Below, in pieces: positions 36,611-44,473 of a stretch of 64,000 nucleotides of DNA. Below the pieces are notes generated by a model. The model ran no database searches, was not told the origin of the DNA, and was given only the letters and a program-made list of their open reading frames with translations. Made by a program: the position numbers and the translations under genes. Location of the stretch: NCBI RefSeq assembly GCF_007988905.1, contig NZ_BJVA01000001.1, positions 248,001-312,000 of the forward strand. Reading direction: 5' to 3'. How positions within the stretch are numbered: the first letter of the stretch is position 1; each line of letters opens with the position of its first letter. Source of the stretch: Gluconobacter kanchanaburiensis NBRC 103587 (GTDB lineage: Bacteria > Pseudomonadota > Alphaproteobacteria > Acetobacterales > Acetobacteraceae).

Positions 36611-37024
36611 TCAGAAGATTTCCTTGATGAGGTCGTTGCCGATGCTGAAACCGGCACCGGCTTCTACAGACCGGGCGAAGCCGGAATTCAGGATGTTTGA
36701 GATGAAGCTGTTATCCGGCACCGGCTGTACGGCCTGAACAGGAGCCTGCGGGTTGGGAGCGGCATAGACTGACTGTGCGCCATAATCGGGTTGGGCGTTG
36801 GACAGGGCAGCGTGGAGTTGCTGAAGCAGGTTCGTGACCTGCTGCTGTTCGGCCTGGAAGGCGAGGGCGAGTTCGCGCAGGTCGAGGGACCATTCGCGGG
36901 CCTGCATGTCGCCGGTCTGGGCAGCGGCCTGCATTTTGGAGCCGAGAGCCTGAAGCGCCTGTGCGGATTGCTGGGCCTGCTGCTGGAGCTGGTTGTAGGT
37001 CTGTTCGATCGTCTGGACGTCCAT
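36611..37024 (-). CDS. Hypothetical Gln/Ala-rich coiled-coil protein
   Basis: 137 residues, no family recognised. The first 90 are Gln- and Ala-rich and predicted helical (EQTYNQLQQQAQQSAQALQ ... FQAEQQQVTNLLQQLHAAL), probably a coiled coil. A Pro/Ala linker (YAAPNPQAPVQAVQPVPD) and a conserved-looking Gly-rich tail follow (GFARSVEAGAGFSIGNDLI). ATG 37024 is preferred since GAAGGAAAAA precedes it by 6 bases; a longer frame to 37084 is unsupported. It is divergent from uvrB, with 164 bases between the starts. A surface or envelope role is guesswork. Confidence 0.75.
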   Translation of the reverse strand: MDVQTIEQTYNQLQQQAQQSAQALQALGSKMQAAAQTGDMQAREWSLDLRELALAFQAEQQQVTNLLQQLHAALSNAQPDYGAQSVYAAPNPQAPVQAVQPVPDNSFISNILNSGFARSVEAGAGFSIGNDLIKEIF

Positions 37025-37191
37025 GACGGTTTTTCCTTCAAAGAGACATGGGCGTTGATACCGCCGGGTCGCGAGTCTCTCCATACCTTTCAGAAATAAA
37101 ATGTCATAAAGATACGCAGGCGGAATGCTGGCAGCCAGAGTCTCTCAGCGTGCCTCTTGCCCTGCGTGCTGCTGTTTCCCATCTTGCCATG

Positions 37192-41220: not shown

Positions 41221-41386
41221 GACTGTCCTCTCTGGTCTGCTTCGAGATGCGCCTTCGAAACGTCATGCGCACTGCGTGTCTTGCCAGATGCATGTCCGGG
41301 AGGGCAAGAAGGTGCCAATTGAACATGTTCCGGACAGCTTTGGCCCCCTTTGCGGGCAGAGCGGACAGAGAAGGTCTCATATCACC

Positions 41387-42067
41387 ATGTCCTCAACCCT
41401 ATCCCCGCGCTCGGCACTGGACGCGGAAGCCGTCAAGACGGCCTATCGTCGTTGGGCCCGCGTTTACGACACTGTTTTTGGCGGTATTTCGGGATACGGA
41501 CGCAAGAGGGCAGTCGCCGCGGTCAATGCACTGCCGGGCGAGAGGGTTCTGGAAGTCGGGGTTGGAACGGGGCTTGCCCTGCCGTCTTATTCCCAGAGCA
41601 AGCGCATTACGGGAATCGATCTGTCTGAGGATATGCTTGAGCGTGCACGCATGCGCGTTCTGCAGGAGCATCTGACCAATGTCGATGATCTCCTTGAAAT
41701 GGACGCAGAAGCGACGACTTTCGAGGACGACAGTTTCGATATTGCCGTTGCGATGTTTGTCGCCTCGGTCGTCCCGCATCCGGACCGCCTGCTGGCCGAG
41801 CTGAAACGGGTCGTAAAGCCCGGCGGCCATATTCTGTTCGTTAATCATTTTCTGGCCACTGGCGGATTGCGTCTGTCTGTCGAACGCGGCATGGCGAGAG
41901 CCTCCCGTTCCCTGGGCTGGCATCCCGATTTCGCCATTGAGTCGCTTCTCCCCCCCGAAGATCTGCGTCGCGCGACGCTGACACCGGTTCCACCCGCCGG
42001 ACTGTTTACACTCGTGACATTGCCGCAATGCGAGAGTAAAAGCGACGCAGCAGCCCTGGTCGCCTGA
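41387..42067 (+). CDS. pmtA: Phosphatidylethanolamine N-methyltransferase
   Basis: SAM-dependent class I methyltransferase that makes phosphatidylcholine from phosphatidylethanolamine. From ATG 41387 (MSSTLSPRSALDAEAVKTAY) it has 226 residues. Motif I is VLEVGVGTGLALPSY, followed by ITGIDLSEDMLERAR and the post-I acidic loop. The N-terminal YRRWARVYDTVFGGISGYGR matches the Rhodobacter-type PmtA signature and separates it from UbiE. Phosphatidylcholine is a major lipid of acetic acid bacteria, which fits the organism. The upstream frame to 41276 is unsupported. Confidence 0.88.
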   Translation: MSSTLSPRSALDAEAVKTAYRRWARVYDTVFGGISGYGRKRAVAAVNALPGERVLEVGVGTGLALPSYSQSKRITGIDLSEDMLERARMRVLQEHLTNVDDLLEMDAEATTFEDDSFDIAVAMFVASVVPHPDRLLAELKRVVKPGGHILFVNHFLATGGLRLSVERGMARASRSLGWHPDFAIESLLPPEDLRRATLTPVPPAGLFTLVTLPQCESKSDAAALVA

Positions 42068-42153: not shown

Positions 42154-43344
42154 ATGATTTATCCGGCCGTCGATACTGCTCCAGATACTGCCTCGCTCCG
42201 TTCCGGCCGCCGAGTCGGAACGTCTTTTATTCTGCTGGCATTATTCGCCGGACTTCTGGGCGGCTCTCTTGCTCTGCCGGTTCTTCAGCAGCACCCGACA
42301 AGTGGGCAGGCTTTTTGCCACGGAATTCTGATGACGTTCTTCGTCATGTGTCCTGCGGCGCTGGGTGGGTTTGGGCAATGGCTTCTTCCCTCAGCTCTTG
42401 GTGTGGATCGCACGATGTTGCGAGGCATGACCATGGCCGGTTTCGGATTTCTTTCCGCGGGTGTGGTGCTTCTCCCGGTACTGCCTTTTGTCGCTCTTCT
42501 ACTCTGGTCCGTCGGAATTCTGGCCGTCGCAATTGATGTCATCACAACCTGCCTTGAAAGCCGGACGTGCCGCTTCCGGGACATGGCACCGCTTGTCTGG
42601 TCGCTGCTTGCGACGGCATGCAGTGTGGTTCTTGTGGCACCGGTGCTGGCAGCCGTCGTGACGCGCGGCATGATGGACGGCATAACCACTACCGCTTTGA
42701 TCGAGACGCTCCATTTGCCTGAAATGGCCCTGATGCTGACACCGGCCCTCGGTCTGGTGACGTCCGCTCTGCTGCCGCGTTCCGATGCTTCGGGCGTGAC
42801 CTCCGCGGTCTCACCCTATGTCTTCGGGATGATGGGCGTCGGTGGTCCTCTTCTGTGGATGGACGGCCTGTATGGGGCGCTTCCGGCAACGGTAGGGTCC
42901 AGTCTGTTGGTTGTTACACAGGTCGTTCCATCAATTGTTCTGATCGCTGCGCTGTGCCGGGATGTCTGGCGTCACAAACGCGACCTTGACGGTGCGGTGC
43001 TCTGGGCAAGCGGCAGTATCCTGCTGTTTGCGGCCGGTTGGCTTTCGGACTGGTTTCCGGCCCATTCCAGCGACCATTCCGCTGTCGCATTTGGCGGTAT
43101 CATGGCGCTTTGCGGTGGGTTCTATGCTTGGGTCGAGATGCTGCTCCCCGGTCGTATTCCAGCGATGATGAACCGTCTCCATGCTGCTCTGATGCTGACC
43201 GGGGCGTTCTGCTCGATCGTGCCAGCTTTCATGGTTTATGGAGAAATCCTCATGGGTATTAGCCTGCTGGCTTTTGGTCTGCTGGGGTTGTTTCTGTTGA
43301 GGGAGAGCGGACGTACCCGAATTTCTATTCGGGTTTCCGCATGA
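42154..43344 (+). CDS. Degenerate heme-copper oxidase subunit I (CtaD-like), probably not an oxidase
   Basis: 396-residue membrane protein with about 11-12 hydrophobic segments that follows cytochrome c oxidase subunit I in order. RRVGTSFILLALFAGLLGGS and FCHGILMTFFVMCPAALGGF (His56 at the low-spin heme position of TAHGLIMIFF) are clear. MAPLVWSLLATACSVVLVAP matches too, as does GGFYAWVEMLLPGRIPAMMN near the end. HPEVY has become HLPEM, the CuB pair of AHHM is replaced by WMDG, and the K-channel lysine block is missing. HFHYV reads SSDHS, so the high-spin heme His is lost while His308 may keep the low-spin ligand. It is intact, about 130 residues short, and overlaps ctaB by 4 bases. A reused heme or assembly protein is inference. 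Confidence 0.75.
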   Translation: MIYPAVDTAPDTASLRSGRRVGTSFILLALFAGLLGGSLALPVLQQHPTSGQAFCHGILMTFFVMCPAALGGFGQWLLPSALGVDRTMLRGMTMAGFGFLSAGVVLLPVLPFVALLLWSVGILAVAIDVITTCLESRTCRFRDMAPLVWSLLATACSVVLVAPVLAAVVTRGMMDGITTTALIETLHLPEMALMLTPALGLVTSALLPRSDASGVTSAVSPYVFGMMGVGGPLLWMDGLYGALPATVGSSLLVVTQVVPSIVLIAALCRDVWRHKRDLDGAVLWASGSILLFAAGWLSDWFPAHSSDHSAVAFGGIMALCGGFYAWVEMLLPGRIPAMMNRLHAALMLTGAFCSIVPAFMVYGEILMGISLLAFGLLGLFLLRESGRTRISIRVSA

Positions 43345-44291
43345 GCGACATGACGACACCTCTGGCGCCTTCGGGGGTCTTTTCTGTTCCGGGCAAAGAT
43401 GGTGATCCTTCGCTAAGAGAGTGGCTTGCACTTCTCAAGCCACGCGTTATTTCGCTGGTGGTGTTTACCGGGGCAGCAGGCATGGCAGTAGCGCCGCACT
43501 GGCCCTCCATCCCCATCGGCCTCATTACCATACTGTGCATCTGTATTGGTGCGGGGGCGGCTGGCGCGATCAATATGTGGTATGATCGCGATATTGATGC
43601 GATCATGAAACGTACAGTCGTCAGACCCATCCCGGACGGCCGGATGCCTGAGCAGGCCGCCTTGGTTTATGGCGTCGTTCTCTCGGTTCTTTCCGTCGTC
43701 GTACTGTGGCTAGCGACAAATGCGCTTGCGGCCGGGATCCTCGCGTTTTCGATTTTTTTCTACAGCGTTATTTACACGATGTGGCTCAAGCGCAGCACAC
43801 CTCAGAACATCGTCATTGGTGGTGCTGCGGGCGCTTTCCCGCCGATGATTGGTTGGGCGGCCAGCATGAACTCCATGGCTGTGCTGCCGGTCGCTATGTT
43901 CGCCATCGTGTTTCTGTGGACGCCGCCACATTTCTGGTCGCTGTCGCTGTATGCATGTAAGGATTACGACAAGGCGGGAATCCCAATGCTGCCGGTCGTG
44001 AAGGGCGCGCGTCATACACGTTGGCAGATCCTGATCTACACGTTCATTCTGACGGCCGTATCTCTTGTTCCGAGTGTTGTTCATGAAGTCGGCCTGACGT
44101 ACACGATTGTCACCAGCCTTCTGGATCTCGGCTTCATTCTCTGCGCCGTGCGAGTGCTCAACGATAAGCAGGATGCAGAAGGCGTCAGTCTGACCAAGGA
44201 CAAGCCGGCGCGCTTCGCGTTCCGCTATTCGCTGGCCTATCTGTTTTTGCTGTTCTGCGGGCTTCTGGTTGATCGGGTGCTGCTGGCATGA
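43341..44291 (+). CDS. ctaB: Protoheme IX farnesyltransferase (heme O synthase)
   Basis: Adds a farnesyl group to heme b to form heme O for terminal oxidases. This UbiA-family membrane protein (316 residues, about nine helices) has the two Asp-rich motifs, NMWYDRDIDAIMKRT and YACKDYDKAGIPMLPVVKG, and the WTPPHFWSL signature. It starts at ATG 43341 inside the ctaD-like stop. Acetic acid bacteria use a bo3-type ubiquinol oxidase that needs heme O, which explains its retention even though the neighbouring oxidase gene has decayed. The stop overlaps the next ATG. Confidence 0.96.
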   Translation: MSDMTTPLAPSGVFSVPGKDGDPSLREWLALLKPRVISLVVFTGAAGMAVAPHWPSIPIGLITILCICIGAGAAGAINMWYDRDIDAIMKRTVVRPIPDGRMPEQAALVYGVVLSVLSVVVLWLATNALAAGILAFSIFFYSVIYTMWLKRSTPQNIVIGGAAGAFPPMIGWAASMNSMAVLPVAMFAIVFLWTPPHFWSLSLYACKDYDKAGIPMLPVVKGARHTRWQILIYTFILTAVSLVPSVVHEVGLTYTIVTSLLDLGFILCAVRVLNDKQDAEGVSLTKDKPARFAFRYSLAYLFLLFCGLLVDRVLLA

Positions 44292-44404
44292 CCACCGACA
44301 TGCATCTTGCCCGCAAGCGCCGGCTCAGCCGTATTACGGGGATTGTCGGCGGTGTCGTACTGCTGGCTGTGATTTTCTATGTGATTACGCTGCTGCGGCT
44401 TTAG
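44288..44404 (+). CDS. CoxF-like small membrane protein
   Basis: 38 residues: a basic N-terminus (HLARKRRLSRITG) and one membrane helix (IVGGVVLLAVIFYVITLL). Its size, pattern and position directly behind ctaB match the small CoxF-type protein of alphaproteobacterial ctaB-coxF-ctaG clusters. Its ATG overlaps the ctaB stop (ATGA). No ctaG, ctaC or ctaE follows; a strong terminator comes next. Function unknown. Confidence 0.68.
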   Translation: MTTDMHLARKRRLSRITGIVGGVVLLAVIFYVITLLRL

Positions 44405-44430
44405 GGGCTGGAGCAGGTTTCAATAAAAAA

Positions 44431-44460
44431 GCCCGGGAGCGAGCTCCCGGGCTTTTTTTT
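44431..44460 (+). terminator. Strong Rho-independent terminator after the ctaD-like/ctaB/coxF-like unit
   Basis: Perfect 9-bp GC-rich stem GCCCGGGAG (44431-44439) with CTCCCGGGC (44444-44452), 4-base loop, then eight T (44453-44460). A run of A before the stem makes it usable from the minus strand as well, for the convergent Tim44-like gene. Confidence 0.95.
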
Positions 44461-44473
44461 GTGCAGGGAAGGT

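Follow-up and report, generated by a model that had tools for sequence, protein, structure and literature searches.

The window, i.e., the whole stretch of 64,000 nt that was analyzed, contains a compact unit of three genes on the forward strand, cox1*, ctaB and a CoxF-like ORF (Table 1). The frame of cox1* is intact, and ATGA overlaps were found at both junctions, in line with the chain of overlapping genes that the first-pass annotation had described. The hairpin that closes the unit has a folding energy of -26.4 kcal/mol (z = -6.1 versus 200 shuffles); it is palindromic and may serve both strands, and it was missing from the output of a consensus terminator scan. The ctaB product exceeded the cut-offs of both profiles (TIGR01473: 318.1 bits versus 210.3; NF003349: 327.3 bits versus 246) and is the only heme O synthase found in the genome (one match at E <= 1e-30). 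The match of the pmtA-like gene to NF045882 had 152.7 bits, under the cut-off of 390 bits, and its true start is probably downstream of position 41276. The name CoxF for the small ORF is putative and follows the first-pass annotation; such ORFs were located after ctaB with a profile made for this purpose. The nearest named loci are 13 from Gluconobacter, with proteins that are 82-86% identical, and the only other named genus is Saccharibacter (two loci). On the reverse strand, a Gln/Ala-rich, coiled-coil-like ORF of 157 aa (36611-37084) adjoins uvrB.

Table 1. Features of the cox1*-ctaB-coxF unit and its upstream neighbour (positions within the window).
Feature	Position	Strand	Basis or remark
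pmtA-like methyltransferase, neighbour upstream of cox1*	41276..42067	+	NF045882 match below cut-off
cox1* (cox1-like gene, degenerate ctaD orthologue), 396 aa	42154..43344	+	PF00115 match
His56 codon CAC, equivalent to low-spin heme ligand H94 of Paracoccus CtaD, TM2	42319..42321	+	
His308 codon CAT, equivalent to low-spin heme ligand H413 of Paracoccus CtaD, TM10	43075..43077	+	
ctaB, heme O synthase, 316 aa	43341..44291	+	NF003349 and TIGR01473
CoxF-like microprotein ORF, 38 aa, one hydrophobic stretch	44288..44404	+	ATGA overlap with ctaB
Terminator-like hairpin and T run, closes the cox1*-ctaB-coxF unit	44425..44461	+	folding energy

The homology of the cox1* product to COX1, which had first been proposed by eye, is established. 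The protein matched PF00115 with 50.3 bits (cut-off 34.8, E = 2.3e-13) over positions 1-400 of the 436 profile positions, and the family profile of cox1* (A2) matched the CtaD of Paracoccus (1ar1) with an E value of 8.3e-83. It failed the CtaD equivalog profile TIGR02891 (31.2 bits versus a cut-off of 670.75). Two PF00115 matches are present in the genome, cox1* and a full-length match in a frame of 667 aa that is taken to be CyoB. An AF2 model of the cox1* product, based on 16 sequences, contained 12 long helices and was weak (pLDDT 59, pTM 0.61); its best matches in the PDB were COX1 chains (7o37_a, E = 1.2e-6, TM 0.67 by query length). His308 is located in a segment under pLDDT 50 and His56 beside one, which is too weak for ligand geometry. 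The model would support no more than the COX1 fold.

The ligands were compared in 79 degenerate relatives, no two of them identical, and in 19 genuine CtaDs of the same bacterial family, and the residue numbers of Paracoccus CtaD refer to the alignment to 1ar1, counted along the printed alignment. The catalytic centre was found to be gone, in agreement with the first-pass annotation. The CuB ligand H276 and the active-site Y280 are replaced by Leu188 and Ala192 in the window protein, and none of the 79 relatives has retained the His or the Tyr. The second and third CuB ligands, H325 and H326, correspond to Asp237 and Gly238, so that the pair is indeed replaced; His is kept in 29 and 7 of the 79 relatives, respectively, and all 14 Gluconobacter sequences that were checked have Asp in the H325 column. 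The high-spin heme ligand H411 aligns with Ser306, as had been read from the sequence, and is His in one of the 79. The K-channel residue K354 is Leu in the window protein, with Lys in none and Leu in 36 of the relatives. Two details of the earlier reading had to be modified. The CuB His of the HPEVY motif, now HLPEM, is lost, but the remaining His187 sits one residue off the CuB position; and the K-channel Lys is lost, but the segment reported as absent is present. No full set of ligands at shifted positions was seen in the alignments to CtaDs. The loop with R473/R474 is missing from 77 of the 79 degenerate sequences, and the R54 column contains Arg in only nine of the 79; we take these residues to contact heme a in CtaD. 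The His that persists in the H325 column of 29 relatives (e.g., L101, L102, L103, L048) is the first of the CuB pair and part of a W-x-H motif; H276 is gone in all.

Both axial ligands of the low-spin heme, which had been suspected to remain, were found to be conserved throughout the family. His56 is His in all 79 degenerate and all 19 CtaD sequences, and His308 in all 78 degenerate sequences that extend this far; the remaining one is truncated by a contig end. Both codons are used at both positions (His56: CAT 42, CAC 37; His308: CAT 66, CAC 12). While 264 columns are invariant in the 19 CtaDs, four of these remain invariant in 78 degenerate sequences, namely H94, H413 and two Trp (W149 and W235 in the window protein), and when 48 diverse members were aligned separately (mean column identity 32%), these four were again the only invariant columns. 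The chance that the two named columns are both among four of 264 is 1.7e-4, a value that ignores shared ancestry. An alignment-free analysis of the spacing yielded H-x10-P in 74 and H-x15-Y-x-W in 75 of 78 sequences, compared with 9.8 and 0.2 in composition shuffles. Apart from H94 and H413, only two columns contain His in more than 30% of the degenerate set, H325 (28 of 78) and a CtaD-invariant His nearer to the C-terminus (69 of 78), and therefore, His187 and His304 are not family-wide. The fraction of CtaD-invariant residues that are kept is 0.56 around H94 and 0.22 around H413, with an average of 0.27.

The cox1* gene is under purifying selection. The median dN/dS in 91 Gluconobacter pairs was 0.083 (0.029-0.153), compared with 0.063 for ctaB, the gene is distributed over 21 genera, and no disrupted copy was found among the matches listed, all of which is in line with the earlier argument for selection rather than decay. 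Two stops were considered as pseudogene signs and rejected: that in G214 is located upstream of the start codon, and that in G250 is the end of the gene itself, with the match running on for two more codons. Matsutani (2014) reportedly explained the non-functional state of ctaD by mutations that had accumulated.

The origin of cox1* was analyzed by phylogeny and gene order. In a COX1 tree, which was calculated with a quick method and has flagged long branches, all 48 sampled cox1* sequences form one clade (SH-aLRT 100) that is nested within CtaD and adjoins the CtaD of genome G086 (91). An origin from CyoB was rejected, because the family groups inside CtaD and CyoB is the outgroup. The order in G086, which has an intact locus, is uvrB-greA-gshB-pmtA-ctaC-ctaD-ctaB-coxF-ctaE, with tim44 further on, and the degenerate order is uvrB-greA-gshB-pmtA-cox1*-ctaB-coxF-tim44-pmbA-M16-thrC. 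In 71 wide degenerate loci, matches were obtained for gshB and pmtA in 71, greA in 66, tim44 in 65, pmbA and M16 in 64, thrC in 58 and uvrB in 57, and the counts under 71 partly reflect the ends of sequence stretches. The pmtA match (E <= 1e-5) was also found in 13 of the 19 CtaD loci, which may include other methyltransferases. A recent duplication as the source was rejected, because cox1* is located at the chromosomal position where G086 has ctaD. Judged from the shared site and order, cox1* is the original ctaD gene, altered at its native position, and ctaC and ctaE have disappeared from this locus; together with the single clade inside CtaD, this indicates that the gene arose once from ctaD, and it bears out the descent from subunit I that had been assumed. 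In G100, a genuine ctaC-ctaD-ctaB-coxF cluster (L118) directly precedes tim44-pmbA-M16-thrC, and Cox11 is encoded elsewhere in the genome; this locus has the appearance of a transitional stage in the break-up of the operon.

The gene content was compared in 68 cox1* genomes of 21 genera, which were hand-picked among the matches listed (long matches, mostly in frames below 530 aa) from 299 genomes, an even draw of the bacterial family. The set includes G009, which is cut by a contig end, and G214 joined later (69 of 299). Among the matches listed, no short cox1* homologue was found outside the family. The coupling to ctaB and to the CoxF-like gene, as claimed for the window, is a general feature: in 78 of 79 loci, the end of ctaB lies 914-990 bases beyond cox1*, the 79th being cut by a contig end, and a CoxF-like ORF follows ctaB in 78 of 78 degenerate and 18 of 18 CtaD loci, but in none of four loci with ctaB only, as judged with its own profile of 24 seeds taken from the loci tested. 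The absence of coxF from all four ctaB-only loci hints at a role of CoxF for subunit I and not for CtaB, and cox1* may be more closely tied to CoxF than to CtaB. The CoxF-like microproteins have about 30-70 aa, a basic N-terminal part and one hydrophobic stretch (window ORF and loci L108-L126). A comparable gene is SEP20 of Sinorhizobium meliloti, a small protein gene right after ctaB with one predicted helix; according to the accessible part of PMC10117765, it lies between ctaB and ctaG in an intact ctaCDBGE cluster, and the likeness to CoxF considered here is that of position.

Exactly one heme O synthase (E <= 1e-30) was found in each of the 68 genomes. Neither Cox11/CtaG (PF04442) nor SURF1 (PF02104) yielded a match in the window's genome or in any of the 68; as a positive control, Cox11 was detected in 182 of the 299 genomes of the bacterial family, always outside the cox1* set, and the control for SURF1 was confined to named controls (two of 14 matched). 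Between the conserved flanking genes, ctaC, ctaE and ctaG were not seen, in agreement with what had been noted for the vicinity of the window genes. Heme A synthase was found in 35 of the 68 genomes and not found in 33, including the window's genome and all seven of its genus, and thus, heme a in the cox1* product is unlikely there. All 68 genomes hold a further strong COX1-family match (best E <= 2.3e-138), with one to eight matches per genome that were counted without individual typing.

Forty-nine family genomes had neither Cox11 nor cox1* in the first search, one of which (G214) later proved to have cox1*; 10 of the 49 gave no hit with the COX1-type profile, and 13 had no ctaB. Five small genomes (G210, G029, G116, G066, G070) contain neither cox1* nor ctaB and gave no hit with the COX1-type profile; in other genomes, this profile detects quinol oxidases as well. 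These five, chosen as small and complete, fall inside the cox1* clade on a UvrB tree, which implies at least two losses. Five further genomes that were left off the tree (G002, G050, G076, G198, G258) also had no profile match, and G050 has a ctaB. Genome G001, which is sister to the cox1* clade (86/83), has the order pmtA-ctaB-tim44 at the same site and lacks cox1* and coxF; this locus (L170) is a natural comparison for the role of the pair. Three genomes outside the clade (G053, G077, G190) and three of the same genera (G179, G249, G227) also keep ctaB without cox1*. Among the four ctaB-only loci, the same site was shown for G001 only; G053 shares pmtA alone, and ctaB of G077 and G190 is located elsewhere. 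The sister genome G001 thus indicates that CtaB can do without cox1*, and a strictly required chaperone role is disfavoured.

Both the gene and its link with ctaB have already been described in the literature. In the part of PMC10715153 (2023, citing Matsutani 2014) that was available, a "deranged COX1-like protein" of Acetobacter is described, which is clustered with ctaB in acetous bacteria, is said to lack all residues that bind metal cofactors, and is proposed to be a scaffold that stabilizes CtaB in the membrane. The degenerate COX1 beside ctaB is shared with the family described here (78 of 79 loci), but both low-spin ligands are present in the latter. Judged from the 79 aligned sequences, the statement that all metal ligands are missing, as worded in that part of the source, is contradicted and needs to be corrected. 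The six sequences of genus g31 all keep both low-spin His, and g31 may be Acetobacter, because the spacing of ctaA and cyoB, 17-20 kb in four of six genomes (different contigs in the other two), resembles that in A. pasteurianus, where the two loci are 12 locus tags apart in the available section of PMC5158111. In the same section, the Acetobacter genes APT_01775 and APT_01774 are annotated as "ctaD" and ctaB, respectively, and such a "ctaD" label can mislead respiratory models. Acetic acid bacteria are stated to have no aa3 oxidase in the accessible part of PMC4007555, and ctaB and ctaA are regarded as still functional remnants of the oxidase cluster in that of PMC6915089, which reports that A. 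pasteurianus ctaB is functional; CtaB therefore does not seem to need cox1* for catalysis. The degenerate B-family oxidases in the accessible part of PMC6431628 are also oxidase homologues that lack an O2-reducing residue; however, they belong to another family, the catalytic Tyr is missing and NO reduction is suspected there, whereas nearly the whole binuclear centre is gone in cox1*. In the literature searched, including that on catalytically inactive oxidases, we found no description of the two preserved low-spin ligands, of how well they are conserved, of the connection to CoxF or of the coordinated loss.

Compared with a genuine aa3 subunit I, cox1* thus shares the orthologous site, the profile, the low-spin ligands and a weak model that matches COX1 chains, but it is devoid of a complete CuB site, the high-spin ligand, the active-site Tyr, the K-channel Lys and, nearly always, the R473/R474 loop, and its genomes lack Cox11 and SURF1. 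We hypothesized that a clade of acetic acid bacteria lost the aa3 cytochrome c oxidase, with Cox11 and SURF1 gone and ctaC and ctaE gone from the site, and that subunit I lost its O2-reducing centre and kept both axial His of the low-spin heme within the unit cox1*-ctaB-coxF. The product can no longer reduce oxygen, and it probably has a second job in heme handling, because the two heme His are preserved beside the gene for heme O synthase. It would be a membrane hemoprotein with one heme (b or o) at a bis-His site, which works with CtaB and CoxF to hold, stabilize or transfer heme O that is destined for the quinol oxidase. This low-spin hemoprotein in heme O handling is the preferred reading, a reasonable possibility that is put forward tentatively. 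It is favoured by H94 and H413 among the four invariant columns, the spacing, the dN/dS values, the use of both His codons, the single ctaB per genome and the joint absence. Against it count ctaB without cox1* in G001 and outside the clade, the functional ctaB of A. pasteurianus, the loss of R473/R474 and R54, the surroundings of H413, which are no better kept than average, and the weak model. A more specific version, in which COX1 has turned into a dedicated holder of heme O (or b), a "frozen" assembly stage that forms a unit with CtaB and CoxF and feeds the replacement quinol oxidase, is conceivable but doubtful on present comparisons.

The same coupling to ctaB would also be expected if cox1* were a structural partner without heme, a COX1 scaffold kept only to stabilize CtaB in the membrane, as proposed in the available part of PMC10715153, and the fast overall divergence with its long branches fits this as well. 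We consider it rather unlikely, as it leaves unexplained why two heme ligands are among four invariant positions when on average 27% of the CtaD-invariant residues are kept, and its source assumes that all metal ligands are missing, which is untrue of the 79 sequences. The product could also be a low-spin heme redox protein, i.e., a one-heme cytochrome b or o for electron transfer that is located beside ctaB mainly by history or for its heme O. In heme-copper oxidases, the bis-His low-spin heme serves as the electron relay, and the 12 long helices of the weak model are compatible with such a role; yet no obvious gene for an electron-transfer partner is found among the conserved neighbours, and cox1* is absent jointly with ctaB and the COX1-type profile matches in five clade genomes, so that this alternative is unlikely. 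Slow decay of a relic that is held open by translational coupling to ctaB, for which the ATGA overlaps, the sister genome without cox1* and the very long branches might speak, is highly improbable in view of dN/dS values of 0.03-0.15 in Gluconobacter, the lack of a disrupted copy among the matches listed, two His and two Trp that are invariant in 78 sequences, and a single origin followed by presence in 21 genera.

To our knowledge, the passage of heme O or heme A from the synthase into subunit I of the oxidase is not well understood. If the hemoprotein reading is true, a natural COX1 with only the low-spin site left, linked to CtaB and CoxF in 21 genera, one of which is convenient for laboratory work, would isolate this heme-transfer step.
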